IMG/VR virus record: IMGVR_UViG_3300009103_000107
Span: 1 to 31,608 of that record
Strand: one strand, 5' to 3'
DNA length: 31,608 nt
Source of the DNA: a virus
The first letter of the stretch is position 1, and each line of letters opens with the position of its first letter. The notes beneath the pieces are model-generated. The model had not been told where the DNA came from and searched no databases. It was given only the letters and a program-made list of their open reading frames with translations. Made by a program: the position numbers and the translations under genes. Below, piece after piece: positions 1 through 31,572 of the stretch.

Positions 1-231
1 ACCAAAATAAAATGGCGATGGTCTCCAATAATTATAATAATAAGGATATGTATGGTATATAGTTTGATATACTCTTGGTCTTAGCGAGTTTACATCTAAT
101 TGAATTGTATCTCCTTCAGCTGTAACTGCTAGTACTTTAATTGTATTTTCTGGCGCTTGTCGGTAGCTTCCGCAACTAACAATTAACGCAAGAAGTACAA
201 TTACAAATGCAAAATTCTTCCATAATTTCAT
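1..231 (-). CDS. Putative lipoprotein (3' end outside window)
   Basis: This reading frame starts with ATG at 231 and stays open to base 1, giving 77 residues with the C-terminus cut off by the window edge. The N-terminus MKLWKNFAFVIVLLALIVSC is a typical lipoprotein signal: two lysines, a hydrophobic core, and a lipobox I-V-S-C with the lipidated cysteine at residue 20. After the cysteine come G-S-Y-R, and near the end a Tyr/Pro/Trp-rich stretch (residues 58-76). It follows the preceding gene by 28 bp, in the same direction. Known: Bacteroidota use SPII lipoproteins heavily, often surface exposed. Inferred: an envelope-acting phage accessory protein, possibly for exclusion or lysis. I do not recognise a family. 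The signal is clear; the function is unknown. Confidence 0.7.
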   Translation of the reverse strand, partial: MKLWKNFAFVIVLLALIVSCGSYRQAPENTIKVLAVTAEGDTIQLDVNSLRPRVYQTIYHTYPYYYNYWRPSPFYFG

Positions 232-259: not shown

Positions 260-628
260 CTACCTACTTGATCGCTTAAAGTTTTTACTGTTTCTAGGCC
301 TAATAGTATCTCTTAGTATTCTTACATTTGGTCGAAGCCTGTTTTCCATAATTGTTGGATCAGAAGAAAATTTTGGATTTTTCCCAATCTGTAAAGATGG
401 TGTTATTTCATCATCTCCTAATGTAGTTACAAATTGACCTTTTTCATCACTTTGAACTTCACTAACATCTTGTATATTATGTCTCCTATAGTCATCGCCT
501 TCGCTAGCACTAGTATATGTGCCCCCCTCCCAATCATCTTCACTTAATAGGTCGCCTTTTTTATATCTTTTCTTTCCATTATTTAAAGGGCTTTTTGCTA
601 AAAATGGACTTGAAAATTTACTACTCAT
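260..628 (-). CDS. Hypothetical basic, probably disordered protein
   Basis: The 122-residue protein begins MSSKFSSPFLAKSPL. It has an acidic, Gly/Ser-rich middle (about residues 28-60) and a strongly basic, Arg-rich tail from about residue 97 (several R-P, R-N and R-S pairs). There is no signal peptide, no membrane segment and no recognisable domain. It starts 6 bp after the stop of the beta-barrel gene, behind an A/T-rich leader, and ends 28 bp before the lipoprotein gene, so the three look co-transcribed. The basic tail could bind nucleic acid or membrane phosphate; this is only inference. The frame is supported by its position in a tight same-strand gene series. Confidence 0.7.
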   Translation of the reverse strand: MSSKFSSPFLAKSPLNNGKKRYKKGDLLSEDDWEGGTYTSASEGDDYRRHNIQDVSEVQSDEKGQFVTTLGDDEITPSLQIGKNPKFSSDPTIMENRLRPNVRILRDTIRPRNSKNFKRSSR

Positions 629-634
629 AATTAT

Positions 635-1825
635 TTATTTTAATGTTATGTTCAGCCCTACTGAACTGTTATATATTTCTGAATCCCAGAATTTAGTATA
701 TTCTCCTTCGAAAAATACACCAATTGATTTACTTAATTTCCATCCAAATACCAAACCTGCTTGGTAATCTTCCCATTGTTCTCCATCACCAGCGGCATGC
801 ATTTCATCATGACCTTCTGCGCTCCAGCCGTTTCTATGTAAATAACTAAAGCTTTCATCTCCCTTAACATACTTATGGAAAGGAGGTAAATAAGATCCAT
901 ACACATGCATCCAGAAGTTATTTTTGTAATGATACCAGTCAAAACCAACCACTGGAGATACAACACCAAAAGAATCAATGGTATCCCAAATCTCATTATT
1001 ATAACGATTCATAAGATCAGTAAATACTGTTTCTCTGAATTCAAGATCTGTATGAGCTACTATTTCTCCATCTGGATCAGTCCAATACCAATCATATAAT
1101 GTTTGGCCTTGATATTGTGTCGTAGTATAATGATCATCATAACCATAATAAAATCCTAAAGTATACCAAGGATTTACTGCATTACCGTTTTCATTAGTTT
1201 CGTTTAACCATATTTCTACTGGATTATAACCATAAGGACGTTGGTGTGTACGATACATAGCTCCAGCTGATAAACTAAATTTCTTACCAATAGGTAGTTT
1301 AGCTCTTACTTCAGCTGATTGATAATTAAAATCTATTTTCCCCTGCTTTCTACTTTCAACTTTAACCATATGGTATTTACCACTATGTTTTAAAAAGTAT
1401 CTATGGTTGTCATATAATTCATCTCTTTCTCTTTCTTTTTCCCAGTGGAATACATATTCTAATCCTTTAATAGGTGAATTTGTAGCAGATAAACCTACGT
1501 TGTTTTCAGTACCATCATAATATTGTGCACCTTTTACTTCGTAATCATATCTAGCTAATTTACGTATACCTATACCATATCTGTAATCGAATTCATGGTA
1601 AACAGTTCCATCTTCTACAACTGGAATATCATATAATCCACCGCTAGGATTAGTTCTTACGAAATAATCTGGTACATTTTCTTTTGGATTTTGCATATCA
1701 CCAGCTATATATATAGTGCTGTATTTAAATAATTCTTTATAAACATCTTTAAAGAATTTTCCTTTTTCCTGTCCACTTATATTAAATGTAATAAGTACAC
1801 ATAGGGCTAATAAAATTTGTTTCAT
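635..1825 (-). CDS. Predicted outer-membrane beta-barrel protein with signal peptide
   Basis: The protein has 396 residues. Residues 1-18 (MKQILLALCVLITFNISG) form a signal peptide with likely cleavage before or after Q19, the style seen in Flavobacteriia. The mature part is rich in Tyr, Trp and Gly, with many alternating hydrophobic/polar stretches such as residues 165-190 and 350-396. It ends in a beta-strand pattern (SVGLNITLK), as outer-membrane barrels do. There are no transmembrane helices and no catalytic motif that I recognise. I recall closely similar proteins in uncultured marine phage genomes, without known function. The ATG overlaps the stop of the 29-residue gene upstream (TAATG). 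Inferred role: an envelope-inserted host modifier or superinfection-exclusion factor. A virion protein is less likely because of the export signal. Confidence 0.75.
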   Translation of the reverse strand: MKQILLALCVLITFNISGQEKGKFFKDVYKELFKYSTIYIAGDMQNPKENVPDYFVRTNPSGGLYDIPVVEDGTVYHEFDYRYGIGIRKLARYDYEVKGAQYYDGTENNVGLSATNSPIKGLEYVFHWEKERERDELYDNHRYFLKHSGKYHMVKVESRKQGKIDFNYQSAEVRAKLPIGKKFSLSAGAMYRTHQRPYGYNPVEIWLNETNENGNAVNPWYTLGFYYGYDDHYTTTQYQGQTLYDWYWTDPDGEIVAHTDLEFRETVFTDLMNRYNNEIWDTIDSFGVVSPVVGFDWYHYKNNFWMHVYGSYLPPFHKYVKGDESFSYLHRNGWSAEGHDEMHAAGDGEQWEDYQAGLVFGWKLSKSIGVFFEGEYTKFWDSEIYNSSVGLNITLK

Positions 1826-1914
1826 TATTTGTATTTTTTAAACATTAATTTATACATTAATTTATTCCATGCTTCTTGTATTTTATCAATACATTTTTTA
1901 ATTTTTTCTATCAT
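1825..1914 (-). CDS. 29-residue cationic amphipathic microprotein
   Basis: This short frame begins with an ATG whose last bases overlap the stop of the giant gene (ATGA at 1911-1914). It ends with TAA overlapping the next start (TAATG at 1823-1827), so it fills the only gap between two large genes exactly. The peptide starts MIEKIKKCIDKIQEAW. Ile5, Ile9, Ile12, Trp16, Leu19 and Leu23 are spaced 4-3-4-3-4, placing them on one helical face. Nine lysines against three acids give a net charge near +6. The C-terminal half contains a short repeat (LMYK-LMFK). Double coupling argues that it is translated. A membrane-active peptide is a plausible guess; a mere coupling spacer is the alternative. Confidence 0.55.
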   Translation of the reverse strand: MIEKIKKCIDKIQEAWNKLMYKLMFKKYK

Positions 1915-4900
1915 TTCTTTTTCTTTTTAGTTTTAACATAATAAACTACAGTTCCAGCTGGTGACTGCATTTCTACAATATCTTTAGGATCAAAATCTTT
2001 TAAATTTCTATACATAACTTTTTTATAACCCTGCGCCTTTAGCTTTCTAATATCATATTTATAATCATTTTTTGCTTTTTCCTTAGCTTTCTCTTCTCTT
2101 TTAATGGTGCTTTGTAATCCCCAATAGGGTAATCCTACGCTCCAACTACTCCATCCTAACATCAATGCTACTCGTTGCCATGTCCTAGTTTCTTCATCCA
2201 TAGCCATTCTCATATTCATTATCTTTCTTAATACCCTATCTATTGGTATATTTGTAGCCGCAGAAATAAGTTGAGATATAGCTAAATAAGTAGGGTTATC
2301 TAAACTCCATCCACGCTTTTTAATTTCCTCCATATTCCAATTAAATGTTTTAGCCGTTGTTCTTAGTTTACGTACTTTTGAATCTAAAACTGGAGATACA
2401 TTAAATATTTCCCATACTGCTTCTTCATAATCTGGTGATTTTCTATCACTCTCTTCCATCACTTTAAGTAATACATTTTTAAGTGTAGATATTGCAGCAC
2501 CACCAAAACCTAATCCAAATAATAATGAATCTGCCATACCATTTGCAACACCAGCCAGTTTATCTTTTTCTTTTTCTTCACCTTCATCATCAAATAATGC
2601 TGCAAATAATGTTTGTTGTAAGGCATTAAATATTATATTTTGAATTGTAGTATAATAAATTATTTTAGATAAATTACCTAAATCACTTTCTCTTTGTGTT
2701 TGACCAGGGCTCTTCCTTCTATTATATAAATCTCTAATAGATTTTTTGGTCATCCTATTGTATTGCATCGTAACATTCTGGAAAGCTAATATTACCCTAC
2801 CAAATAGACTAGCTTGCTGTTGTGATATTTTACTAGGATTACTAGATTGCTGACTTTCTTCTGATATAGCATAGAAATCATCAAAGGCTTTTGCCTCTGC
2901 TTCTGCTTGAGTATATTTTTTACCAGTTTCTGGGTTTTGTCTTTTTAGCAATGCATCTCTTCTATTTATATAAAAAGTTGCACCACCTGTTGCAATAGCT
3001 AAGCTATCCATAATTCTGGTTATAATAAAACCTTTATCAAGTAAATAAGCTATTGCGCCCTTCATACCACCATCTTTAGCAGCATTGGCTAATTCAGCTT
3101 CATTAACATTAATTCTTAATCCATCACGCCTATTAACTAAATAATCAGAATTCATTAACTTCATTACTGTTGGCCAATATTCTTTACTAGCAAAAGCTTT
3201 AGCGGCTTGATATATATTATTATCACCCCAATTTATAAAGTTTACATTTGATATAAGCTGCAGCAATCCAGATTTAACATTTAAGAACATTACTGCACCA
3301 ACAGAACCATTTAGCCAATCAAGCATTTCATTTACTATTCTAGCTCCACCGCCTTGATATACCGGTCTATTACTACCAGATTTCATTCTACGTAAACTAT
3401 CTTTTAATGCATCAACCCATTTTTTACCATACAGCGCTTCAAGCTTATTCATATTCTTGTCTGAGAATATAATCTTAGTATTCTCATCAAATTCGGTCAT
3501 AACTTGGCGCCTAAAAGTTTTATCTATATTAGACATTATGTCGCTATCAATTGTTCCTCCGGCCCAATTATCAGTTGGCGCTGGGTATTGCTTATCTTTT
3601 TGTATTAATATTACTTCGTCAGCAAAAACATTAAGTTCACTATCTGCTTCTACAGCGGCAACTAAAGCATTTTGATCACGTTTAGAAATACCAGGAATTT
3701 CCATACCTTGCTTATTCCATATATATACCCTCATTGCTTGAGATTTTGTATATGGGCCAACACCAATTTGATCCATTAAAGGATTTCCTTTTAGAGTAGA
3801 TCGAAGTGATTTAAATTTCTTTTTAAGAGCGGCAAAATCATTAGCTACTGTAACTTTAGCAGATAAGATTTGTTGTTCAGCTTTATTATAAGGTCCCATT
3901 AAATTATCTTGAATCCATTTAGCATGTCTATTCCCTTGTTTACTATAACCCATTAGATCTTGCATTAATCCTAAAAAGTCTTCAGCAGAAGGCGTAATAG
4001 TTAATTGTCTACCTAACCATTTAAAAACTCCTTTATCTTTTTTCTTTCCTTCTAATCGTGCTCTAACTGGGGAATATTCTGCTTCAGCTTTTAACCCAGT
4101 TGTTTCTTCTAATATTGTATTAAATTCTGTATCTAAATTTCTTTTTTTACTAGCTTTAGCTATTACTACATCAGACTTAACATCTACTTGATCTAAAATT
4201 TGTTTAACTGCTTTAACATTAGGCATTTGATCATCAGCAAAATAAAAATCATTGTAACCCTCCCCTGTTTTTTGTAATACCCAATTAGCTTTGGCTTGTG
4301 GACTTCCATTTTCTAATCCTGTTATATTTTCCATTGGTATATTTAAACCTATTCCATCTAAAAACATTTTAATAGCTGGAGCTGAAGCTTGAGGTCTTGC
4401 TGTCAATACAAATATATCACCACCACCAAATTTACCTTGGCGTTTTAAAGCGAGGTCAGCTAATGGCCCTTTTTCTGCTCCTTTAACATTTTCAAATTGT
4501 GAAAAATCAAATGAAGCTCCCATTTGTTCTAATTCAATTGCTCGTTCTGCAAATTCAGCAGGGGTCAATTCCATGCTTACTTCTTGACTAGTACCTGGTT
4601 TAAAAGCAGGCGCATATACTATAACCTTTTCTTTAGTTTTAGCCAACGTATCATCAAAATCAAATACACTTATACCCTTTGCTGATCTTTTTTTACTTGC
4701 TAATACTCTAGTTTTAAGATCACTTTCAAATGTATCTTTCACTTCTTGTGATGTCATACCCGGATATGTAATAGTGGGGGCAAATTTTTCGTTAAATGTT
4801 ACTCTAGCATTTTTAGCTATATTAGCCGGGATGGAAACTTTTAAATGTTTAGAAGCTTTAGCTTTACTTATTTCGCCTTTAACAACCGCCATAACTAATT

Positions 4901-7900
4901 CATTTTGATAATGGATTAAAGAACGATTTTGAGCTTGCTGAGGCGTTAAACCTAATCCCATTTCAGAAACTAATGTTTTCTTAGTTTTAGGATTAATAAT
5001 GGTATTTAAATTAACACCTGATGCAGCTAGTCTTGCTAAATCTACATTATCATCGAATATAGTCATACCTTCTGGTAAGGTTGCAGCATATCCCGAATTA
5101 TCTATTCTTGCATCATCTAATTTAGATAATTGAATTTGACCATAATTTTTTACAATAGCATCCATTGTAATATCTACATGGTTATATTTAATAGCCCATA
5201 GTAATGAAGCACCGATTACAGAGGCTGGTGGGCTATGCTCTTCACGATATTTTTCACCTTTACTATACTTCTGCCCTTTGCCATGTTCAAACCTCTTAGA
5301 AGCCCCCTTAAAGCCTGCTGAGATTTTTATTAATCCTGTAGTAGCTTGATATGAAGCTGTAATAAATGGGGCAACACTACTAAGCGGTTGTCCCGATTGT
5401 TCTAATATTTTTGTATATAACCTAAGGGCTTTTTGATTTTCTGCAATCTGGTCCGCATGCTTAGCTAAAAAAGCTTTGTCTATTTTTTTGCCTTTAGGTA
5501 TTTTTATTCTTTTAGGTTTTAAAGCTAATAGCTTTTGATTAAGAGGTGAATTATCATTTTCCTTTGCCGCCTTTATTAACTGTTCATAAGCTGGATCTGA
5601 TTTTCCATAATATGCCCCTGTTTTTGGCATAAATTTTCCTCTATTAATTCCTTTTAAATCAGCAGCTGTAGTTCCTGCTTCTACCCAACTACCATCCATT
5701 AATTGAAAATATTTCTTTGTCCCAGGAGGCCATTTACCCTTAACTTTCTTTACACGAATTGGATTACCATCTTTATCCAAACCTTTACCTTTCCTATCTC
5801 TTCTCCCAAAATTACCAAAGTTAGATAATTCCAAAACAGCAGTTCCTATATCTCCATTAAGAACTGTTTCTAAATCACGTTTGTGTATTTTTTGTATATT
5901 GACTAACGAATTTGGTTTAATAATCTTACCCTTAGGATCTAGTTGTCTTTGAGCTGCATAAATATCATGCTTTGTGCTTAGAACCCTTAACTCCGTGTCT
6001 TGTGTTGGCGTAGGTTTTCTCTTTTTAGAAGCTTTTACTATATCTAAAGATGCAAATTCTTTAGTTCTTCCATCATATATTCTTTCTACTTCATTCATAA
6101 ACTCTTCAGCCGTTAATTCTGATTTAGCTTCTTTTAATTTAAAAGCTAAATCATTCATAAACTCTGTATCAATTTTTACTTCTTGAAATTGTTCAATAGT
6201 TAATCCTTTTGCTAATAAATCTATAAAACTTCTACGCCCACTTTGATCTTTGGTGTAAAAATCTATTAATGCTTGTTTGTTTAATCCAGAGAGTTGATAA
6301 ATACCCGTACCTGCCCCTAAAGTTTCTCTACCTATTTTTTCTATATTAAACCCCTTAACAGTTCTAAATCTCTTTTTCATCGCAGCTATAGGAATAGTCT
6401 CTATATAACCATCATTTATAGCCTTTTTTATAAAATCATTCTGGGCTTTTACACTTTTCCCCATCGCATTTCTTACCGCAATTCTAGTTGCTGTATTTTG
6501 GGCTTTTAATTCTTTTGCAAGTGATGAAGGATCAAGTTTAGTAATTATTTTTTTACCTTTTCCCCCAATTTCTTTTACTTTACCTACAGAACTAGCTATA
6601 AATTGTTTTACGCTATTTTTAATATTTGTTAAAATCTCTGGCCTAACATCAGCGGTTTGTTTTTCTATAACTGCAATATCAGTAGGATATTTTCTTTTTT
6701 CAAATTCTTTATCTGTAGTTTCTTGTGTTTCTTCAGCTTGAAGCTCCCTACCTTTTTCTGTTAATACATCTTGACTTACTTGCTTGCCTTTTCTAGTTGC
6801 TTCTTCTACTATTTTAGGGCCAATACGCTTAGCAATATTTTCCATATATGTAGAAGCCTCTGCTTTGCTAGGATCGAAGTTTTTTGTAAAACTATTAAAT
6901 TCCTTATTTAAAAGACTAGTAACTTCTTCATTAACCTGAGGATTACTAAGATTTATTGGAACACCTCTTTGCCCCGCCCATCTTTTTAAAGCATCCCTAC
7001 CAGTTGCTTGATATTGTTTAGTCAAATCTTCTACATTATCAAAATTCCCATCTTTAAATTCTTTAGTTAACTCTGTTAATTTTTTAACTGATGGTTTAAT
7101 AATAACCGGGGCTTTATCTTCTTTACCCCTAGGCATTCTATATTTTCTTTTAACTAAATCACCCTCAGCGCCTTCATCTAATAATCTTTCTTGCGCTTTA
7201 CTTAATACACCTGATTCACTTCCACGTAACCATCTAGTCTTACCTCTACTGATATTTTTATTATAATCTTTTATAAACTTATAAATATCTTCACCTGTAT
7301 CAAATCTTATATTACCAAACCCTAATGACTGCCATATTCTTCTAAAGAAATCTCCAATTTGTGTTAAAGTTCCTTCATTTAAAACCAGTGCTCCATCAAG
7401 CACTGCTTCAGAAAATAAAGTTAAAACTTCTTCCGCTGCAACTTCATCAGAAATTGTTGGGTCTCCTTGATATTGTCTTACTCTATTTGCAAAATCCCCA
7501 TTTTTCATTAAATCAGGGTTAATTTTTTCCAGATATTGCAATAAATTATTTCCTAATGCTAAAGCAGTTCCTTTACTATTTTTTACTGTATTATAAATTA
7601 CTGCATGTAAAAATTCATGGGCCGCGGTATTAACAGCACCATCTTTTAAAGCCTCTGCTTGATTTAAAATTATTATTTGTTTTCCAGTCTTGGGATTGTG
7701 GAAAAAACTTCCATAATTTGAAGATGATTTTTTATCTAAATTCCACCCATCTTTCTTTAATCTATCTATTTGTTTTTCTACTCCTTTTTTATCTTTAGCA
7801 GTAATATATTTTAATTTACCACTTACTTTTCCATTAATTGCATCTTTAACATTCCCTACCATTCTAAGATATTCTGTTTTAGCGGCTGCATCTAATGCAA

Positions 7901-10541
7901 TACCACTTATTTCTTCAGAAACAATTTTAAGTCTTTCTATTTCAGGGGAACTAATATCTTTATTATTAACTTCTTTTATTTTCTTTTCTAAAGAGTCTTG
8001 TTCTAATAATAATCTTATTAATCGCGGCCTTGTTCTTCCATCAATATTTTGGGGTATTCTTAAGCCAGCATTTCTTAATTCGGAAAGTTGATCTTTTTGT
8101 ATTCGCCCTTCTTCTTTAGTTATTTTACCATTTTCAACTAACTTACTTATTCTATCATTTGCTTGAGTAAAAAATGTTGCTGTAGCATGCATAGTAGGAG
8201 CTAATTTATGCATATCAAATTTTTCAATTACATCTAAAGCCATTTGATTAATTTCTAATGCTGTTTGAGCTCCAAATTTACCTACAACAGGAAGTACTTG
8301 CCCTATAGCTCTACCTACTCTAGCCCCTTCCCAATCAAATTTTGCGCCAGTTAATGCTTCATACCATCCTTCACCAGTTTGTAAACGAACAGTAGCATCA
8401 GAAATATAGCCCTGGAATCCTTCTGTTACTGCCTCACTAGCCCCAGCTATTTCTGCAGCTACATAAGTTCTACCTACGCCTTTGATAAATTTATATAACT
8501 CTCCTCTATATAAAGAAGCTAAGGTTCTTCCCCCTGTAGCATAAGCTCCAAATATAGCATCTATACCTAATTTTTCTAATCCTGCAATAGCACCAGATGC
8601 CATCAACATATATATCATATCTATTGATTCTGGATCTTCTAATTCCGCTATAATATCCTCTACAGTAATTTGGTGACCTTCCCCTTCACGGTTTATAATA
8701 TTTTTTTTCATGGTTTCATACACCATACTAGTCATTTCCGTAGCCATAATAGTTCCAGCACCTAAAAGAGTTAATCCTTTACCGGTAATTTGCATACCTG
8801 CCCCCCATGGGCCTTTAATTCCTTTACCTACTCTTTCTAATATTCCACCGCCTATCATAGGCCCCATTTGAGGTAATTGTTTTATAAAGTTTGCTGCAGT
8901 ATCTATAAATCCTAATTCTTGCAGTCCTCCCCATCCTTCTCCAGTTTCTAATTCATTTAATAAAGATTCAAAATGCTCGTCCTGCATTATCTCTAAAGAT
9001 AATTTAAATATATCTTTTGTAGCTTCTTTATCATATTGCTCAAATCCCTTATAATCTTCAGCCCCTTTAAGTAATTGATTTATAGTGTATTTTCCAAGAA
9101 TCTCTTTAGTTTTTGAATCTTTTGGAGTAGGTGTCCTACCAAGCCAGTTAACAGTAACATCATGATAACGAGCAGATACACTAGCATAAGAATATGCTTT
9201 TTGGAAAGCGCTTTTTTCTACATCTGTTAAAGTGGCCCAATATTCTTTATCAGCCATTTTTTCTCGTAATTGCGCAGTAGTTAAATTTAAAATACCACTT
9301 TTTTCTAACAGTTCTTTATTATCATTAAAGAAATTCCTAATAGTATCTCTTTGATGCATATCTGGTCTAGAAAATGTTGTTTGTAATTGCTTAACCATTT
9401 TGCTAACACTTACCTTAGTTCCAGCCCATGCGTCTCTCAGCTTCCATTGAAGATACTTTCCTTCTTTAAAGTAATCTTCATCTAACTGTGCTAATTCTTC
9501 CTCTTTAGTTCTGCCAAAAGGTTTATATAATTCTTTTAAAGCTGCTTGAGCAAGAAATTTATATTGTCCCACTCTTGATTCAACCTCAGGGGTATAAAAT
9601 AATTCATTATACCTATCTTGAGCCCATTTATCTAATCGGGCTTGCGAGGCTAATAATCCTTCTGGGGTATCTAATTCACCATTTTCTTGGGCTTCCCTCA
9701 TAAATTGATAACCACGCAATCCTTCACTTTCTTTTTTAATTCGAGACTGTGCTAATTTAAAAGCTGCTTGTATAACAGGATCATTCTGTATTGCAGTCCT
9801 TAGTACTGTTTGAGAATTTTCTACAAATTCATCCCAAGTTTCAAATTTACTAAAATCTTCAGCAATAATTAAATTTTTTATATAATCTAAAGCTTCACGA
9901 TTTGGAGTATAATATTGTGTAGTATCTAATTCTTCATCATCTGATATAAAAAAAGGAGGTATAGTAGTTTGTAAATCTCCTAATTCTTGTTTTGTTATAT
10001 CATATCCTACTAATGGAGGGACAGTCTCAATAATTTCATTAACTTTATTAGTAGTGGCTTCTACATCTAATGTCCCATATTGATTCAATACAGGCTGTTC
10101 CATTACCTCATTTACTGCTTCTACTTTTTCTTCAGTTTCTTTATAAAAGTTTGTTTCTTTTGGTGGAGTAGGATTAAATACAGCATCTAATTCTTCTTCA
10201 GTAGTCATTTCTTTTTCCATTGCTATATTACCTATTTTAGTAGGTAAAGTAGTAGTAGGTATAGTAGATTGAACTACGCCGCTTTGAGATCGCTCATCAA
10301 TAATTTGGGGTTTACTTTCTTTTTCCTCTTCTATATTTATAATATCTTTTTCATCTTTATCTAAATTTTCCCATATTTTATTAAGTAAAATATCAGCATC
10401 ACTTTCAACTTCTTCAATAATAGGGGCTTCCTCTACTTCAGTAGCTTCTATTTCTTCTTGTTCCTGATTTTCTTCATCTTCATCTTGCGTTACCACATCA
10501 GTCCCAGGCAATAAATCCCAGATATTGTTTTCGTCAACCAT
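1911..10541 (-). CDS. Giant internal virion / ejection-type protein with HExxH and HAD-phosphatase-like domains
   Basis: At 2876 residues this is the largest gene here, last of the structural series, in the place of T7 gp16-like ejection proteins. Residues 1-130 are very acidic and probably disordered. Hydrophobic segments lie around 560-610 and 640-670, with others near 2620-2650, 2670-2695 and 2785-2810. HEFLH at 975-979, followed by an E-E pair at 1037-1038, resembles a gluzincin zinc site. Residues 1960-2129 look like a complete HAD phosphatase: D1961-x-D1963-x-T1965, then T2047 in VLTAR, K2084, and the acidic pair D2103-D2104. The C-terminal third resembles regions in large polyvalent phage proteins. 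Known: such giants are packed in heads and ejected with DNA. Inferred: a membrane-crossing ejection protein with enzyme cargo. I see no convincing lytic transglycosylase. It ends in a polylysine tail. Confidence 0.85.
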   Translation of the reverse strand: MVDENNIWDLLPGTDVVTQDEDEENQEQEEIEATEVEEAPIIEEVESDADILLNKIWENLDKDEKDIINIEEEKESKPQIIDERSQSGVVQSTIPTTTLPTKIGNIAMEKEMTTEEELDAVFNPTPPKETNFYKETEEKVEAVNEVMEQPVLNQYGTLDVEATTNKVNEIIETVPPLVGYDITKQELGDLQTTIPPFFISDDEELDTTQYYTPNREALDYIKNLIIAEDFSKFETWDEFVENSQTVLRTAIQNDPVIQAAFKLAQSRIKKESEGLRGYQFMREAQENGELDTPEGLLASQARLDKWAQDRYNELFYTPEVESRVGQYKFLAQAALKELYKPFGRTKEEELAQLDEDYFKEGKYLQWKLRDAWAGTKVSVSKMVKQLQTTFSRPDMHQRDTIRNFFNDNKELLEKSGILNLTTAQLREKMADKEYWATLTDVEKSAFQKAYSYASVSARYHDVTVNWLGRTPTPKDSKTKEILGKYTINQLLKGAEDYKGFEQYDKEATKDIFKLSLEIMQDEHFESLLNELETGEGWGGLQELGFIDTAANFIKQLPQMGPMIGGGILERVGKGIKGPWGAGMQITGKGLTLLGAGTIMATEMTSMVYETMKKNIINREGEGHQITVEDIIAELEDPESIDMIYMLMASGAIAGLEKLGIDAIFGAYATGGRTLASLYRGELYKFIKGVGRTYVAAEIAGASEAVTEGFQGYISDATVRLQTGEGWYEALTGAKFDWEGARVGRAIGQVLPVVGKFGAQTALEINQMALDVIEKFDMHKLAPTMHATATFFTQANDRISKLVENGKITKEEGRIQKDQLSELRNAGLRIPQNIDGRTRPRLIRLLLEQDSLEKKIKEVNNKDISSPEIERLKIVSEEISGIALDAAAKTEYLRMVGNVKDAINGKVSGKLKYITAKDKKGVEKQIDRLKKDGWNLDKKSSSNYGSFFHNPKTGKQIIILNQAEALKDGAVNTAAHEFLHAVIYNTVKNSKGTALALGNNLLQYLEKINPDLMKNGDFANRVRQYQGDPTISDEVAAEEVLTLFSEAVLDGALVLNEGTLTQIGDFFRRIWQSLGFGNIRFDTGEDIYKFIKDYNKNISRGKTRWLRGSESGVLSKAQERLLDEGAEGDLVKRKYRMPRGKEDKAPVIIKPSVKKLTELTKEFKDGNFDNVEDLTKQYQATGRDALKRWAGQRGVPINLSNPQVNEEVTSLLNKEFNSFTKNFDPSKAEASTYMENIAKRIGPKIVEEATRKGKQVSQDVLTEKGRELQAEETQETTDKEFEKRKYPTDIAVIEKQTADVRPEILTNIKNSVKQFIASSVGKVKEIGGKGKKIITKLDPSSLAKELKAQNTATRIAVRNAMGKSVKAQNDFIKKAINDGYIETIPIAAMKKRFRTVKGFNIEKIGRETLGAGTGIYQLSGLNKQALIDFYTKDQSGRRSFIDLLAKGLTIEQFQEVKIDTEFMNDLAFKLKEAKSELTAEEFMNEVERIYDGRTKEFASLDIVKASKKRKPTPTQDTELRVLSTKHDIYAAQRQLDPKGKIIKPNSLVNIQKIHKRDLETVLNGDIGTAVLELSNFGNFGRRDRKGKGLDKDGNPIRVKKVKGKWPPGTKKYFQLMDGSWVEAGTTAADLKGINRGKFMPKTGAYYGKSDPAYEQLIKAAKENDNSPLNQKLLALKPKRIKIPKGKKIDKAFLAKHADQIAENQKALRLYTKILEQSGQPLSSVAPFITASYQATTGLIKISAGFKGASKRFEHGKGQKYSKGEKYREEHSPPASVIGASLLWAIKYNHVDITMDAIVKNYGQIQLSKLDDARIDNSGYAATLPEGMTIFDDNVDLARLAASGVNLNTIINPKTKKTLVSEMGLGLTPQQAQNRSLIHYQNELVMAVVKGEISKAKASKHLKVSIPANIAKNARVTFNEKFAPTITYPGMTSQEVKDTFESDLKTRVLASKKRSAKGISVFDFDDTLAKTKEKVIVYAPAFKPGTSQEVSMELTPAEFAERAIELEQMGASFDFSQFENVKGAEKGPLADLALKRQGKFGGGDIFVLTARPQASAPAIKMFLDGIGLNIPMENITGLENGSPQAKANWVLQKTGEGYNDFYFADDQMPNVKAVKQILDQVDVKSDVVIAKASKKRNLDTEFNTILEETTGLKAEAEYSPVRARLEGKKKDKGVFKWLGRQLTITPSAEDFLGLMQDLMGYSKQGNRHAKWIQDNLMGPYNKAEQQILSAKVTVANDFAALKKKFKSLRSTLKGNPLMDQIGVGPYTKSQAMRVYIWNKQGMEIPGISKRDQNALVAAVEADSELNVFADEVILIQKDKQYPAPTDNWAGGTIDSDIMSNIDKTFRRQVMTEFDENTKIIFSDKNMNKLEALYGKKWVDALKDSLRRMKSGSNRPVYQGGGARIVNEMLDWLNGSVGAVMFLNVKSGLLQLISNVNFINWGDNNIYQAAKAFASKEYWPTVMKLMNSDYLVNRRDGLRINVNEAELANAAKDGGMKGAIAYLLDKGFIITRIMDSLAIATGGATFYINRRDALLKRQNPETGKKYTQAEAEAKAFDDFYAISEESQQSSNPSKISQQQASLFGRVILAFQNVTMQYNRMTKKSIRDLYNRRKSPGQTQRESDLGNLSKIIYYTTIQNIIFNALQQTLFAALFDDEGEEKEKDKLAGVANGMADSLLFGLGFGGAAISTLKNVLLKVMEESDRKSPDYEEAVWEIFNVSPVLDSKVRKLRTTAKTFNWNMEEIKKRGWSLDNPTYLAISQLISAATNIPIDRVLRKIMNMRMAMDEETRTWQRVALMLGWSSWSVGLPYWGLQSTIKREEKAKEKAKNDYKYDIRKLKAQGYKKVMYRNLKDFDPKDIVEMQSPAGTVVYYVKTKKKKK

Positions 10542-13495: not shown

Positions 13496-14920
13496 TTATC
13501 TATTCATATAATTACTTCCTACAGAAAATAATTGTTTCGCTCCATTTGGGTCTGTAGTCCCATCGGTGGAGAATTTTACTGTTATATAAAAAGCTTTTAC
13601 TCCTGTTTCTTGTGCTCCTGTTGTAATAACTTCTTCAGCACGTGCTGGAGAATTATTATTTAATACTGCATAATAAGTATTTTGTTTTCTATCAAATCCT
13701 GCCCTATAAGGTATACCATTTTCGGTATAATATCCTTCGTCATAACTATAAATTTTAGCTACTGTATCTTGATAAGTAGTATCCCCTAAAGCAGGTTGTT
13801 GTGGATTAGTATCTACTCCAGTTTCTTCTGATTGTACTTGATTAGCATTTATTTCCCATCCATTACTACCTTCATAATTTATAGTTTTAAATGTTTTCAT
13901 TCTAATCGGATCTGGATTAAATACAAAATCTACTGTAGATGGATATGCAGTTCCATAAAAATTATTATAATTTGTTCCACTATAATGTTTCCATACTTTT
14001 TGAGATTTAAAGGAATAAAAACTTCCATTACAACTTGTCATTAATTCTGGGATATAATCAAAAAAGCTACACCATCCATTTATTAATTCATCATAAGCTA
14101 CAGTTTGTCGCGTCTTACCAACACCATCTCCTATAGTAACAACATAGTTTTTATTATAAATATCATAACCTCCTGTTATAATACCACTAAATTCTAATTG
14201 ATCTCTAAAATAATCAATCATTCCCATGTTAGATATTTCTTCAATACCACTTGGTCCTAATTTTAAAACAGCTGATCTATCTTTGTCAGTAAAATATTTA
14301 TTATATCCATATACTGCAAATGAACCAGGGTCTTGTGATATACCAAAATTGCCTTCAAAAGCAGTTGGTGTACCAATTACCATAGATGCCATTGCATTAG
14401 TAGTAAGTGGTTGTCCTTCTTGGGTAAATATAACATCTTTATCTATAGGCGCTCTATTTACTTTCTTTTCTTGTAAAATAAGTAAATTAGTATTTTCTGC
14501 ATATAATTTTTGTACACTTCCCGATGCTGGATCAACAGCACGAGTTATATCTTCACCTATAGGAAATTGATTAGTATTATTTGTACCTGTTCGAGAATTA
14601 TAAATACCAGAATATATTAAAGTATTTTCAAGTCTTTCTTGTTCTGCCTCTTCTTCTACTATATATGCTTTATTACCAAAATCTACACTAGTATTATTAA
14701 AGCCCCCTCTTATTCTAGCTTCTTCTATAAACCAATCTTCTTCTTCTATTTCATCATAATAAGGAACTGCCGCATTGGTTATACCTGTGGAGCTTTGATA
14801 ATATTCATTAGTACCCAAAGCATTAGTATAGTGATCTGGATAGTCTGATGTTACACCTCTATCTTTTAATCTCTTCAACCAGAAGGTGTTGAAATATGAA
14901 ACTTCTAATGTTACTGGCAT
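13496..14920 (-). CDS. Tail nozzle/propeller-type structural protein (second, smaller part)
   Basis: The 474-residue protein consists of repeated beta-rich stretches with Tyr/Asn/Gly turns. Residues 100-170 hold the stretch IGEDITRAVD and then KLYAENTNLLILQEKKV, a pattern I recall from tail structural proteins of uncultured marine podovirus-like phages; in some of them it is joined to the kind of protein encoded just upstream. The blade-like repeats with S-F-Y-S-F and V-x-K-H-Y near 300-312 resemble a beta-propeller. It starts 10 bp after the 1160-residue gene. Inferred: part of a tail nozzle/muzzle complex with that protein. A peripheral tail or receptor-contacting role is the alternative. 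No catalytic motif is seen. Confidence 0.65.
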   Translation of the reverse strand: MPVTLEVSYFNTFWLKRLKDRGVTSDYPDHYTNALGTNEYYQSSTGITNAAVPYYDEIEEEDWFIEEARIRGGFNNTSVDFGNKAYIVEEEAEQERLENTLIYSGIYNSRTGTNNTNQFPIGEDITRAVDPASGSVQKLYAENTNLLILQEKKVNRAPIDKDVIFTQEGQPLTTNAMASMVIGTPTAFEGNFGISQDPGSFAVYGYNKYFTDKDRSAVLKLGPSGIEEISNMGMIDYFRDQLEFSGIITGGYDIYNKNYVVTIGDGVGKTRQTVAYDELINGWCSFFDYIPELMTSCNGSFYSFKSQKVWKHYSGTNYNNFYGTAYPSTVDFVFNPDPIRMKTFKTINYEGSNGWEINANQVQSEETGVDTNPQQPALGDTTYQDTVAKIYSYDEGYYTENGIPYRAGFDRKQNTYYAVLNNNSPARAEEVITTGAQETGVKAFYITVKFSTDGTTDPNGAKQLFSVGSNYMNR

Positions 14921-14930
14921 AATTATATTA

Positions 14931-17900
14931 TTACAAAGATTTAAATAAATCTACAAAATTACTACTTGTAGAGGATTCATAAAATATATCTAAATTACTT
15001 TCTACCGGTTCGGTTTCAGAAACACTTAAAAATGGTTCCATACAATATGTTCCCGCGGCGAGCGCAACATAGGGCTCAGGGAATGAAGTTGTTAAAGGAT
15101 CTACAACTACTTTAGCCCCTAAAGTATTTAATATATTATCAGAATTTACTAATTGAGGTTGGCCTTTTTTAGCACCAACTCTAAAATTACCTGCTAAAGG
15201 ATTTTCTTCTACATTATAAAAACTCTGTGATCCGCCTGGTAGCCCCCATGGGATTCTTCCATCAAGAGTTAAGGGGTCATTATCTGTAGGATTAACAAAA
15301 GCCCCGGCTTCTGCATTAGAAGGGTTAAATGGTGAATTTGCTAATTCTAAACCACCTAATCCAACTGGCCCAATTGTTACTATTTCATCAAATGTTCTAG
15401 TAGGAAAATATTGAGTATTCCATAAATAAGTTATATTAGAAGCATATGCTCCTACTGGAAGATTTCTATTATCTATAGTTGGATTATTTACTCTTCCATA
15501 TACTTTTACTGAAGATGGAAATTCACTTTGTAAAGGCCCGACTTCTTGTAAATCTCTAGGTAATTTATTAATATTATCAGATATAAGAGTAGTAAAAGCT
15601 GTCCTGCCTCTTTCTTTTATAGGAGTTCTAATAGGGTAACCTAAAGTAAAACCTGGCAAATATGCATTATAATATTCTTGTTCTTGTTGCTTTACAACTA
15701 ATTTATAAGATTGCCATCCTAAGGGATTAGGATCCCATACACTTATCTCTACTATACAATTATTAGCGCCACCTACAAGTTGTAGTTCTTCGCTATTTAC
15801 ATACCCAGTTCCTGGATTTACTATTTCAATACTTGTTACAGCACCACCACCACCAACAGTAATAACTTTTACCGTTAACCCACTTCCTAAAGCTTGAGGA
15901 GTTCCAAGACCAGGATTATAAGTAGTAGCATAGGTAGTTCCTGCTGCATAACCTGTGCCTGAAGCATTAATATTAATATCATCAGCGCCCGAGTCAGGAT
16001 AAGATTTATATAAACCAGGTTGGCCATCCGATGTAGCTGCAATATTTATATTAGTATTATTATTTATAGTTAAATTTAAACTATTTCCTAACCATTTATA
16101 AGTTGATAAAGCAGTTGATTGCACATCATCCCATGATTTATAGGGAACATATAGTGTAGAACCCGCGGTATTTGGTATATCATCATTTAGAGATAAGACA
16201 ACACTAGATGCCCTTCCCACTCTATCTGATAATACAAATCCAACTTGATAATTTCTATTTTGTTTTACCGAATGATTAGGGTATTGAGCATAATTATTAT
16301 ATGCAAGAGACTTATTTCCATTAATTACTGAATAATCTAAATTATTTGGCGGTGTATGTTGAGATACAAAATTCCCATATATTACTCTATTAGCACTTAT
16401 TTCTTGCGCTAAAGCTTTAATAGGCACTTTATCATATACTCTATTTTGTTGGCTAGAAGAAAGAGTTTTATAAATCTTAGTGGATTTATAATCAAATTTA
16501 TAATAAAATTGGGTACCGCTTGTATTTGGTAAGGGTTCAATATCCCCACCCACTATATCTGCTACTTGTATTGTTTGTACAACTTTAGTAGATAATCCAT
16601 CTGATTCTTTATAAAGTATATCAATACTTTTTATTTTATAATCATTTGTTAATGCAGTTAGCGCTGTAGCCGCGCTAGTTCCTCCATCAGGTAATGGGAT
16701 TTTAAGAGTTATACTATCTATGCGATTTTCAAACCATTCTAAAATAGTACTTGAAAAAGCATCGTTCATATCTTGTTTAGGATCGGTTAATCCCCATCCA
16801 AATTGACCCCATTGTTTTGGAATAAAACATATTTGACTAAAGGGAGCTGATAAAGAATATTCATTATCTTCATATTTAAATCTATAACTAAATCTTATAA
16901 ATTTTTCTTCTATTAAATCTTCATCTCCCGTAAAGCTACTATTATAATCTGGGTTAGTCCCTACTCTTACTTTGTCAGCAATATTATTTACTCGTACATC
17001 TTTAGTTAAAGTTACTAAAGCATACTTATTAGTAGGATATTGGATAGTAGTACATAAGGTTATAACGGATTGTATAAGTACTTCATCGGCTATTGTTAAT
17101 GGATTTCCCGCTGTATCTGTGATAAAATTACCTGTAAAATTATCACTAGTTATATAATCCCCTACTTTAGGGGTGGGTTGTGGAGAATTTTCTGTCCCTA
17201 CAACATTAGTAAAGTTATAAGCTATAGCAAATTGGGTTCCGGCTGCTATAGTAAAAGGCACAACCGCAGGAGTTACAGGATTATTAGGATCATTACCATC
17301 CCCAGCTCCAACAAATACAGTTGTTTCAAAACCATTTTCATTTAATATACTACTTTCATTAGCCATTGTAGAGCGAGAAAAAGTAATATCTATATTATCA
17401 GTTCCATTATAAGTTCCCGGGGCAGCATTAATAAAATTATTATAAATAGTAACTGAAGTATTAGTTACAATTGTTATAACCTCCCAAAATTCTTGATCCC
17501 CTTGACCAGGAAATCCCGTAGCAATATCTCCAATTTTAATACCCGTGGTATCAGCCATTGTTAAAACATAGCCTCTTAATGCTCCAGCCGCTAAAGCTCC
17601 AGCTGTTATTCCTAATATATTTTGTTGTAATACTAAAGGGGTTTCATAAGGATAATATTTCGCAACTGAAATTTGATCTTCTCTAGTATAATGAGTTGGA
17701 GTATTTACGGGAACAGGATTAGCTAATTCTACATTTATTTTTCTAGGTTGATTTCTATTATCAGTCCAATATAATAAATCATCTAATAAATTTATACCAA
17801 ATATTTTATAATTTTTATTTAAATTTAAAAAATCACCAACAACTAATAATTTTAAAGTATTTGTAGTAACATCTAATTCATGAATCATGTTGGCAAATCC

Positions 17901-18413
17901 AATAGTTATTACATCTAATGCTAACAGAGTTATACTAATATCTATAGTTATATTAGCAGCTGTTACATTGGTCACAACAGGAGCAACAGTGGGTACAACT
18001 CCATTCCAACTATCACCTCTTAATAACATACCAGTTTGTATACCAGAAGCTTGTGGATCAATAACGGTACCAGCTGCAGTAGCTAATGTAATAGTAGTTC
18101 CTGTTTGTCCTACGCTAGAATAAGTGACTTTATCTCTTGGGCAATTTGCAGCGCCGCTATATCCGGCACTCATAATATATATTTTATTATTTTTTTCGTT
18201 AGTAAATTGACCAATAATATCTGCCCCATCTCCAGTTAATAAATCTGCAACTTCTGTATTGCCTAATACATTCTCAAATTCGCCTACACTTGATCCTTGT
18301 GATCTACTAATTTGTAGATTTTGAGCATCCCGGTATTCGCCATTGGGTATTAATCTATCATCTAAGTCTTTATTCATCTTAGATTTTAGAAAAGTATTCT
18401 TTATTTCTGGCAT
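14931..18413 (-). CDS. Large tail nozzle-type structural protein with inserted GxGY beta-module
   Basis: The 1160-residue protein starts MPEIKNTFLKSKMNKDLDD, then R-L-I-P-N-G-E-Y-R-D-A near 21-32, a hallmark I recall from abundant marine phage virion proteins placed after the connector genes. The rest is nearly all beta, with many Thr/Asn/Gly-rich strands; about residues 500-540 and 660-740 look like propeller blades. Around 814-881 there is a Gly-rich insert with two G-T-G-Y turns and G-G-G-G between them. The C-terminus (E-P-V-E-S-N-L-D-I-F-Y-E) is a natural-looking end. Inferred: nozzle or muzzle protein at the end of a short tail, acting with the neighbouring 474-residue product. A tail-fibre role cannot be excluded. 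Confidence 0.75.
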   Translation of the reverse strand: MPEIKNTFLKSKMNKDLDDRLIPNGEYRDAQNLQISRSQGSSVGEFENVLGNTEVADLLTGDGADIIGQFTNEKNNKIYIMSAGYSGAANCPRDKVTYSSVGQTGTTITLATAAGTVIDPQASGIQTGMLLRGDSWNGVVPTVAPVVTNVTAANITIDISITLLALDVITIGFANMIHELDVTTNTLKLLVVGDFLNLNKNYKIFGINLLDDLLYWTDNRNQPRKINVELANPVPVNTPTHYTREDQISVAKYYPYETPLVLQQNILGITAGALAAGALRGYVLTMADTTGIKIGDIATGFPGQGDQEFWEVITIVTNTSVTIYNNFINAAPGTYNGTDNIDITFSRSTMANESSILNENGFETTVFVGAGDGNDPNNPVTPAVVPFTIAAGTQFAIAYNFTNVVGTENSPQPTPKVGDYITSDNFTGNFITDTAGNPLTIADEVLIQSVITLCTTIQYPTNKYALVTLTKDVRVNNIADKVRVGTNPDYNSSFTGDEDLIEEKFIRFSYRFKYEDNEYSLSAPFSQICFIPKQWGQFGWGLTDPKQDMNDAFSSTILEWFENRIDSITLKIPLPDGGTSAATALTALTNDYKIKSIDILYKESDGLSTKVVQTIQVADIVGGDIEPLPNTSGTQFYYKFDYKSTKIYKTLSSSQQNRVYDKVPIKALAQEISANRVIYGNFVSQHTPPNNLDYSVINGNKSLAYNNYAQYPNHSVKQNRNYQVGFVLSDRVGRASSVVLSLNDDIPNTAGSTLYVPYKSWDDVQSTALSTYKWLGNSLNLTINNNTNINIAATSDGQPGLYKSYPDSGADDININASGTGYAAGTTYATTYNPGLGTPQALGSGLTVKVITVGGGGAVTSIEIVNPGTGYVNSEELQLVGGANNCIVEISVWDPNPLGWQSYKLVVKQQEQEYYNAYLPGFTLGYPIRTPIKERGRTAFTTLISDNINKLPRDLQEVGPLQSEFPSSVKVYGRVNNPTIDNRNLPVGAYASNITYLWNTQYFPTRTFDEIVTIGPVGLGGLELANSPFNPSNAEAGAFVNPTDNDPLTLDGRIPWGLPGGSQSFYNVEENPLAGNFRVGAKKGQPQLVNSDNILNTLGAKVVVDPLTTSFPEPYVALAAGTYCMEPFLSVSETEPVESNLDIFYESSTSSNFVDLFKSL

Positions 18414-30374: not shown

Positions 30375-30731
30375 TTAATTTGTTATATATTGTCGTTTAT
30401 AAATTGAAATATTATTACTATCACCACTAAATTCACATTTAACAGTATTTTCATCTACCATTGTGTATTTAATTGACACCCACCAGTCATTTTCTGGATT
30501 GTATATTTGTGTAATAATATGTTCCTTTTCTTTTTCTAATACTTCTTCTTTTAAAATATTACCTTCTTCCCAGGATACATTTGTAAATTGTAATTTTTCT
30601 TCTTCATTAATTACTACAAATACATAATGGCTACTACTTTCACCTTTCCATATTCCTGGTAGTTCTTTGCTTATTTGGCTATAACTAGTCATAGCAATAA
30701 GCATACAAATACTTAATAATAATTTTTTCAT
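30375..30731 (-). CDS. Small secreted protein, possible lipocalin-like fold
   Basis: The 118-residue protein starts MKKLLLSICMLIAMTSYSQ, a typical Flavobacteriia Sec signal peptide with likely cleavage near residue 19. The mature part (about 99 residues) begins with P-G-I-W-K-G, followed by alternating strands (H-Y-V-F-V-V-I, L-Q-F-T-N-V-S-W, H-I-I-T-Q-I-Y, W-W-V-S-I-K-Y) as in small lipocalin-like or other eight-strand barrels. No catalytic motif is seen. It sits between the holin and the small helper genes, so a periplasmic role in lysis or envelope change is possible. No family is recognised with certainty. Confidence 0.7.
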   Translation of the reverse strand: MKKLLLSICMLIAMTSYSQISKELPGIWKGESSSHYVFVVINEEEKLQFTNVSWEEGNILKEEVLEKEKEHIITQIYNPENDWWVSIKYTMVDENTVKCEFSGDSNNISIYKRQYITN

Positions 30732-30796: not shown

Positions 30797-31252
30797 TTAC
30801 TTTTTAAAGATACTAGTTGCCTTTTCAGTGGTACGTCCACCGAAATAAGCTAGAACGACAGCCATCATGACCTTTTCAAAAGTATCATTCCATGTTTCAT
30901 TTATATGGAATGGTATAGTTTCTACGCTATCTAAAATACCGGCCATTGAGAATATAATTATACACCATACTAATACCAGTGGGCGTACATTTTTACTCAT
31001 CCAGGAGTCAGACATAGAATCTGCTTCCCATCTTGATGTAATAGCTTCTAATTCTTTACTCTGTTGGTCGTATATTAATTGTTGTAATTTAACTTTATCT
31101 TCTGCGGGTGCATCGGATTTAGTTATTTCCGCTATTGCTTCTTTTGGTGATGTAACACCTCGTAATACATTTCCTAAAGTAGGATTAATAACAGATGCAG
31201 CGCCAAATAATAATTGCCCTACGGTTGTATCTTTAAATTTCTTTTTACTCAT
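30797..31252 (-). CDS. Holin of the 3-TM family
   Basis: The 151-residue protein has a hydrophobic N-terminal segment (11-30), an acidic/helical middle (35-78), then R-W-E-A-D at 74-78 and W-M-S-K-N-V-R-P-L at 84-92, followed by membrane segment 92-110 and a second one at 125-139 ending Y-F-G-G-R-T-T-E-K (136-144). This sequence order is the signature of the three-TM holin family known from gene-transfer agents and many marine phages. Function: forms lesions in the inner membrane that trigger lysis. Its ATG overlaps the stop of the metallopeptidase-like gene (ATGA), so the two are translated together. Assignment is firm at family level. Confidence 0.85.
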   Translation of the reverse strand: MSKKKFKDTTVGQLLFGAASVINPTLGNVLRGVTSPKEAIAEITKSDAPAEDKVKLQQLIYDQQSKELEAITSRWEADSMSDSWMSKNVRPLVLVWCIIIFSMAGILDSVETIPFHINETWNDTFEKVMMAVVLAYFGGRTTEKATSIFKK

Positions 31253-31572
31253 AATGCTTCGTAATCATCTGTTTTATCATAGGCTTCTTTTTCCCAAGGT
31301 AAATTTGGATTTCCTTCATCCATTTTACTTCTAGGATATTTTTTACCTTTCCAATAAACAGCTTCATCATCATAATCAAGATCACCTCTTTTCATTTGAT
31401 CTATATGAACTTTTTCATGATCGATAATACTTTGTTCATCCTTGGGATGTAATTCATCTGATACTAAAATAGTACCATTTTTGTTTCCTTTGCCTAAAGC
31501 ACCATCCTCTATTTTTGTAGTATAGACAGGTGTCCAATCAAGATCGTATGGAGGTTTTATTTTAAATGCCAT
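31249..31572 (-). CDS. Small HExxH metallopeptidase-like protein
   Basis: The 107-residue protein contains H52-E-K-V-H56 in a helix (I-I-D-H-E-K-V-H-I-D-Q-M), the HExxH zinc signature, with a downstream W-E-K-E-A helix where Glu94 or Glu96 could be the third ligand as in gluzincins. The size matches minimal gluzincin folds. No signal peptide is seen. Its stop overlaps the holin start (ATGA), which suggests a job in lysis, for example cutting a host cell-wall or envelope protein. The alternative is a non-lytic host-protein protease. The motif is visible; zinc binding and activity are inferred. Confidence 0.65.
   Translation of the reverse strand: MAFKIKPPYDLDWTPVYTTKIEDGALGKGNKNGTILVSDELHPKDEQSIIDHEKVHIDQMKRGDLDYDDEAVYWKGKKYPRSKMDEGNPNLPWEKEAYDKTDDYEAL

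Follow-up and report, generated by a model that had tools for sequence, protein, structure and literature searches.

The window analysed here is the whole of a 31,608-nt stretch from IMG/VR virus record IMGVR_UViG_3300009103_000107. Close to one of its ends lies a minus-strand open reading frame of 396 codons (635–1825, read from 1825 to 635), whose product is assigned as an outer-membrane β-barrel protein of 396 aa on the basis of the reading frame, an AlphaFold2 (AF2) model, fold matches in the PDB and viral relatives. Its N-terminus, MKQILLALCVLITFNISGQ (residues 1–19; 1769–1825, minus strand), resembles the type I signal peptides of Bacteroidota and is conserved across the family alignment, both as judged by inspection; Q19 is nearly invariant, and the model places a helix at residues 2–17. 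At the other end, SVGLNITL (residues 388–395; 641–664, minus strand), followed by a final K, matches the BAM β-signal pattern, i.e., polar-x-G-x-x-hydrophobic-x-hydrophobic. The motif is conserved across 188 homologues; T4-like relatives of the barrel end in xGxNYxIF or xGxNYxIL, and the last residue is F, L or Y. A chance open reading frame is far excluded, because 24 homologues at 60–88% identity to the window barrel retain long invariant blocks. The initial annotation of this DNA had described a 396-residue barrel-like protein with a signal peptide, and the reading frame, the signal and the barrel-like ending all bear this description out.

The AF2 model of the barrel, computed from 96 homologues, has a pLDDT of 73.3 and a pTM of 0.68 and contains approximately 12 membrane-length strands; it supersedes an earlier, poor model from 25 sequences (pLDDT 62). 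A large insert of short helices and a hairpin (residues 198–285; 971–1234, minus strand) is placed by the model and the alignment between two barrel strands. Its pLDDT is mostly 72–93, the family alignment varies in length within it, and it is probably one long loop. Hydrophobicity alternates along the barrel strands more strongly than in shuffled sequences, with 44 of 20,000 shuffles reaching the same value. In a Foldseek search of the PDB the best matches were all outer-membrane barrels, i.e., EspP, NanC, OmpG, FapF and NalP (E 6e-6 and weaker), with query TM-scores that are low, about 0.2–0.33, and therefore neither the closure nor the strand number of the predicted barrel is established. 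The best viral fold match in BFVD was A0A516LKJ4 (E 6e-26; 24% identical across the barrel), which is shorter than the window protein, at 342 aa versus 396 aa. The same BFVD search lists several annotated phage porin-like and OmpA-like barrels, so that the earlier remark on the rarity of full-size barrels in phages was too strong. Structure prediction of a closed barrel with a BAM signal had been proposed as a check: the barrel-type fold matches and the β-signal agree with it, and closure is the part that the low TM-scores leave tentative. Judged by its anatomy, i.e., signal, β-signal, amphipathic strands, a model of about 12 strands and fold matches, the open reading frame is a predicted outer-membrane barrel.

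By homology of its crass muzzle, terminase, portal and capsid genes, the window is one end of the genome of a crassvirus-related podophage. Genes for the terminase, portal, capsid-type virion protein, ring and muzzle match PHROGs families, and the closest cultured terminases are those of the Flavobacterium elemo and Cellulophaga phi13:2-type phages, together with that of a Manatee Spring genome. The muzzle is divided over two adjacent open reading frames of 1160 and 474 aa (13496–18413), both matching what is one muzzle gene in relatives (phrog_14478, 1474 positions); the 474-aa frame matches the crassvirus muzzle C-terminal domain crAss_MUZ_C (E 1.3e-12), and either the gene is really split here or the sequence contains an error. 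The barrel gene closes the minus-strand late block, with the terminase, portal, capsid, muzzle and giant-protein genes preceding it, so its earlier placement at the end of the structural block holds. Directly upstream of it, and in the same position in many relatives, stands the gene of the 2876-aa giant protein (1911–10541, minus strand), presumed to be a multi-domain virion cargo protein. Its sequence contains the motifs HEFLH, which is zinc-protease-like, and FDFDDTLA, which is HAD-like and has a weak DUF2608 match.

On the other side of the barrel gene are a small soluble frame of 122 aa (260–628, minus strand), weak relatives of which adjoin the barrel in a few loci, and a Pro/Tyr-rich lipoprotein of family CL7 with the lipobox LIVSC (1–231, minus strand). 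The contig ends inside the lipoprotein gene, of which 72 of 77 residues are identical in the homologue of the close relative L040. Two further genes are known from relatives and would lie past that end: one for TMcc, as we name a protein of ~95 aa that is anchored in the membrane by its N-terminus and has a coiled coil in the periplasm, and one for a secreted thioredoxin-fold protein (Trx). The order in L040 is barrel, lipoprotein, a 79-aa frame, TMcc, a 69-aa frame and thioredoxin. A holin gene (30797–31252, minus strand; phrog_3427, GTA_holin_3TM-like, PHROGs E 7.7e-18, cluster CL5), also assigned by gene order, sits at the opposite end of the contig from the barrel, and in other lineages its homologues sit directly downstream of barrel and endolysin. 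It is flanked by a gene for a secreted 118-aa protein (30375–30731), which matches no Pfam or PHROGs family, and its start is overlapped by a gene for a 107-aa protein (31249–31572) with an HEKVH motif, which resembles a small zinc peptidase domain and has no Pfam match.

Barrels of the crAss-like type have confirmed relatives on at least 541 IMG/VR contigs, and a second, 34%-identical type likewise on at least 541, two sets that may overlap. A crass-like terminase was found on 20 of 20 tested contigs of the first type; the second type occurs on contigs of up to 246 kb, and 9 of 19 of its contigs carry a T4-like gp23 capsid gene. As a weak test of universality, the barrel was present in all three terminase-first contigs of at least 47 kb, shorter ones being fragments. 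Searches at E values up to 1 gave no match to the barrel in Pfam, including Lom/Ail and other known outer-membrane protein families, or in PHROGs, including head and tail families, and no NCBIfam family for the window barrel (P0001) or those of L125, L120 or L022. A sequence-profile search of the PDB at E up to 10 returned nothing useful, four barrel family members and TMcc, used as tblastn queries on cultured phages, found no relative at a threshold as loose as E 5, and the 46%-identical relative L120 as query recovered no further viral contigs. By these comparisons the barrel family is new to Pfam, PHROGs and NCBIfam; it is widespread but nameless. A 398-aa gene near the endolysin of the elemo phage was considered as a counterpart and rejected; its product has no signal peptide and looks like a fibre protein. 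One 245-kb contig (IMGVR_UViG_3300030098_004828) bears two barrel copies (L201 and L203) separated by ~120 kb, both of which have a holin in the vicinity, and is possibly two joined genomes or a duplication.

The host-type signal peptide would fit a host outer-membrane gene recently acquired by the phage. Matches to the barrel were found in 2 of 396 Flavobacteriales genomes, and both are contigs that we had already found; the seven matches in the genome collection are all in MAGs, four of them beside the phage giant-protein gene, and phages harbour the barrels as an old, diverse family. On the test in the 396 genomes we rejected recent host origin, which we regard as extremely improbable. Contigs of barrel phages that lie inside MAGs of Woesearchaeota, Maricaulis, Alphaproteobacteria and Bacteroidetes (L115–L119) are binning contamination.

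Companions of the barrel were found by gene clustering around 80 or more relatives and by profile searches. TMcc and the thioredoxin-fold protein are constant, and an M15 endolysin, a three-TM holin and the proline/tyrosine-rich lipoprotein are variable. TMcc crosses the membrane once, near its N-terminus, and has an ELPxP linker and a coiled coil that is strongly conserved (heptad signal matched by 163 of 20,000 shuffles), its charge pattern is that of an N-in protein (2.7 versus 1.1 K/R), and its periplasmic part is only about 60 residues long. With its N-terminal anchor, N-in topology and periplasmic coiled coil, the family has the features by which inner-membrane spanins are recognised. 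The thioredoxin fold lacks catalytic cysteines in both phage types, N-x-A-N or close variants replacing CGPC; examples of this periplasmic pseudo-thioredoxin are L035:10134–10532, L125:9374–9703 and their relatives.

Among crAss-like loci with at least 4 kb of sequence downstream, 49 of 51 have TMcc and thioredoxin within 2.5 kb of the barrel, and both partners are near the barrel in 64 of 78 T4-like loci. Scanning from TMcc instead, we found the barrel in 33 of 33 loci having at least 5.5 kb on both sides, and thioredoxin in 74 of 76; the eight loci without a barrel are all short on one flank. Between crAss-like and T4-like phages both TMcc (hhalign 8e-46) and thioredoxin (hhalign 7e-37) are homologous. 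The common gene order is TMcc-Trx-barrel-M15 endolysin-holin, in one tight operon, and the alternative is barrel-(lipoprotein)-TMcc-Trx. A crAss-like lineage (L329–L360), in which a crass-like terminase was confirmed in 18 of 21 records, clusters with T4-like phages in the trees of the barrel and of TMcc, and less cleanly in the Trx tree; with midpoint rooting, this grouping is what one would expect of a module passed whole from phage to phage. Thus, as judged from gene content, the barrel, TMcc and the redox-dead thioredoxin are a genetically linked module in crAss-like and T4-like phages.

The giant virion protein gene lies outside this module, and the fact that the barrel comes after it in the window and in many relatives could point to a virion or particle-associated barrel. 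The module also occurs in gp23-bearing T4-like phages, whose virions are unrelated, and occurrence in such different phages argues against a structural role. Furthermore, the barrel has a predicted cleavable signal peptide and a β-signal, and in other crAss-like loci TMcc and Trx stand between it and the structural genes. We therefore consider a particle-associated barrel very unlikely; a structural virion protein was what the initial annotation had named as refuting its reading.

A holin or endolysin gene lies within 4 kb of the barrel in 50 of the 51 crAss-like loci that extend 4 kb or more downstream. For T4-like loci the corresponding figure is 37 of 67, and 30 of 67 have no holin or endolysin model there. 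On T4-like contigs of 71–246 kb, 9 of 12 holin matches fall within about 4.5 kb of a barrel and 3 of 12 are far away, against roughly 1 in 14 expected for random placement; these distances were computed by hand from coordinates, and related contigs are not independent. The lipoprotein gene overlaps that of TMcc by 32 nt in seven relatives, and most CL7 members contain 9–13% proline. These two features, and the porins and small channels among the Foldseek matches of the barrel, would suit an arrangement in which CL7 pairs with TMcc as a conventional two-component spanin, leaving the barrel an accessory role as porin or channel of the operon, e.g., for the exit of solutes or endolysin and easier release. 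Against this, CL7 or another recurrent lipoprotein is nearby in only about one quarter of crAss-like loci, while TMcc and barrel co-occur in nearly all; no recurrent lipoprotein, i.e., o-spanin candidate, was found between –7 and +5 kb in about three quarters of them. In several loci, moreover, CL7 is 1.4–2 kb from TMcc, on the far side. An accessory porin thus appears unlikely to us.

The conserved partners and the nearby holin and endolysin genes indicate a stage of lysis or envelope disruption. Our leading reading, which we put forward tentatively as a real possibility somewhat short of probable, is that the barrel serves a phage envelope-disruption (lysis) module as its outer-membrane component and is the partner of the spanin-like TMcc. 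Host BAM machinery would insert the barrel late in infection; TMcc, anchored in the inner membrane, would bind it across the periplasm, and the complex would be kept in check while the cell wall is intact. Once holin and endolysin have removed the wall, the bridge between inner and outer membrane would collapse the periplasm and open the outer membrane in the manner of a spanin. For the dead thioredoxin, a role as chaperone or linker in the periplasm is conceivable. More doubtful, though still possible, is the stronger claim of a barrel-type spanin, in which the barrel replaces the o-spanin lipoprotein and performs, with TMcc and the dead thioredoxin, the last lysis step of many marine crAss-like and T4-like phages, the hosts of which are presumably Bacteroidota. 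The barrel would stand in for the o-spanin lipoprotein or, in the window lineage, act together with it; there it may not be the o-spanin, because a Pro-rich lipoprotein gene that overlaps TMcc by 32 nt has the look of a classical one. Among the jobs suggested initially, before the neighbourhood was considered, a change of permeability late in infection comes closest to the lysis context, and receptor masking and exclusion of other phages fit it less well.

Phage outer-membrane proteins that alter the host surface are known, e.g., Lom and Cor, and the barrel could similarly remodel the surface of the infected cell, by receptor block or phage exclusion, with TMcc and Trx as its assembly factors. 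In 71 of 78 T4-like loci a protein with Pfam/NCBIfam matches to a T9SS type A sorting domain directly adjoins the module, and crAss-like L334–L360 also place a T9SS-type secreted protein beside it; these sister lineages therefore appear to dress the host surface. The secreted proteins are of ~630–1000 aa (L125:5015–7999 and relatives; L334, L338, L349, L356 and L360), the T4-like form combining GCTDPxAxNYDPxAxxDDGSC repeats with the sorting domain, and phages that encode them apparently use the type IX secretion system of the host. However, the sorting domain was absent from all 20 contigs of the group to which the window belongs, and the barrel matches none of the known Pfam families. An exclusion protein needs no inner-membrane coiled-coil partner, and sharing an operon with endolysin and holin points to a stage at which exclusion helps little. 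We judge surface remodelling to be improbable, and neither it nor an accessory porin explains the inseparability of TMcc and barrel as well as a lysis module does.

Bacteroidota are one of the dominant groups among marine heterotrophs, and little is known of how their phages open the outer membrane. In the spanin survey of Kongari et al. (2018; PMC6139136), about 13% of the genomes had no recognisable spanin, including those of Bacteroides and Croceibacter phages, and the authors noted that their criteria left aside the possibility that "an OMP could act as an o-spanin". A 2025 survey gives unimolecular spanins as the only kind in Bacteroidetes phages (PMC12596118), and we found no description of a barrel-based spanin in the literature searched. 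The three-gene module of marine crAss-like and T4-like phages makes this possibility directly testable. Because it travels with TMcc and the dead thioredoxin across hundreds of relatives, usually beside lysis genes, the barrel is a tangible candidate for a novel means by which bacterial outer membranes are broken. The lysis reading, if true, would assign a function to gene families without a library name; if surface remodelling holds instead, the module is still a widespread, uncharacterised envelope system common to unrelated phages.

Phage-encoded outer-membrane barrels are represented by the Lom/Ail_Lom family and the PA-2 porin Lc. Lom has 8 strands; the window barrel differs from it in its ~12 modelled strands, in having no Pfam match and in its lysis neighbourhood with a dedicated inner-membrane partner. 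T9SS PorP/SprF resembles the barrel as an outer-membrane barrel of Bacteroidota, and in sister lineages the barrel adjoins a T9SS cargo gene; PorP/SprF identity was considered for this reason and dropped, as there was no NCBIfam match and T9SS cargo is absent from the window group. Unimolecular spanins (T1 gp11), annotated in the flavophages Ingeline and Nekkels (PMC8776804), combine a lipobox with a C-terminal membrane anchor, whereas the module has a barrel, in which sequence and model reveal neither an N-terminal lipobox nor a C-terminal transmembrane helix. The lipobox is also a mark of the outer-membrane subunit of two-component spanins; the barrel sequence has none and is therefore not classed as a classical o-spanin, our claim being that it may work like one. 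The λ Rz/Rz1 two-component spanins (PMC6139136) resemble the module in their N-in inner-membrane protein, periplasmic coiled coil, outer-membrane partner encoded next to it, and usual company of holin and endolysin. They differ in that their outer-membrane partner is a short lipoprotein, whereas the one proposed here is an integral β-barrel of ~400 aa, and in that the module constantly includes a third protein, the dead thioredoxin fold.
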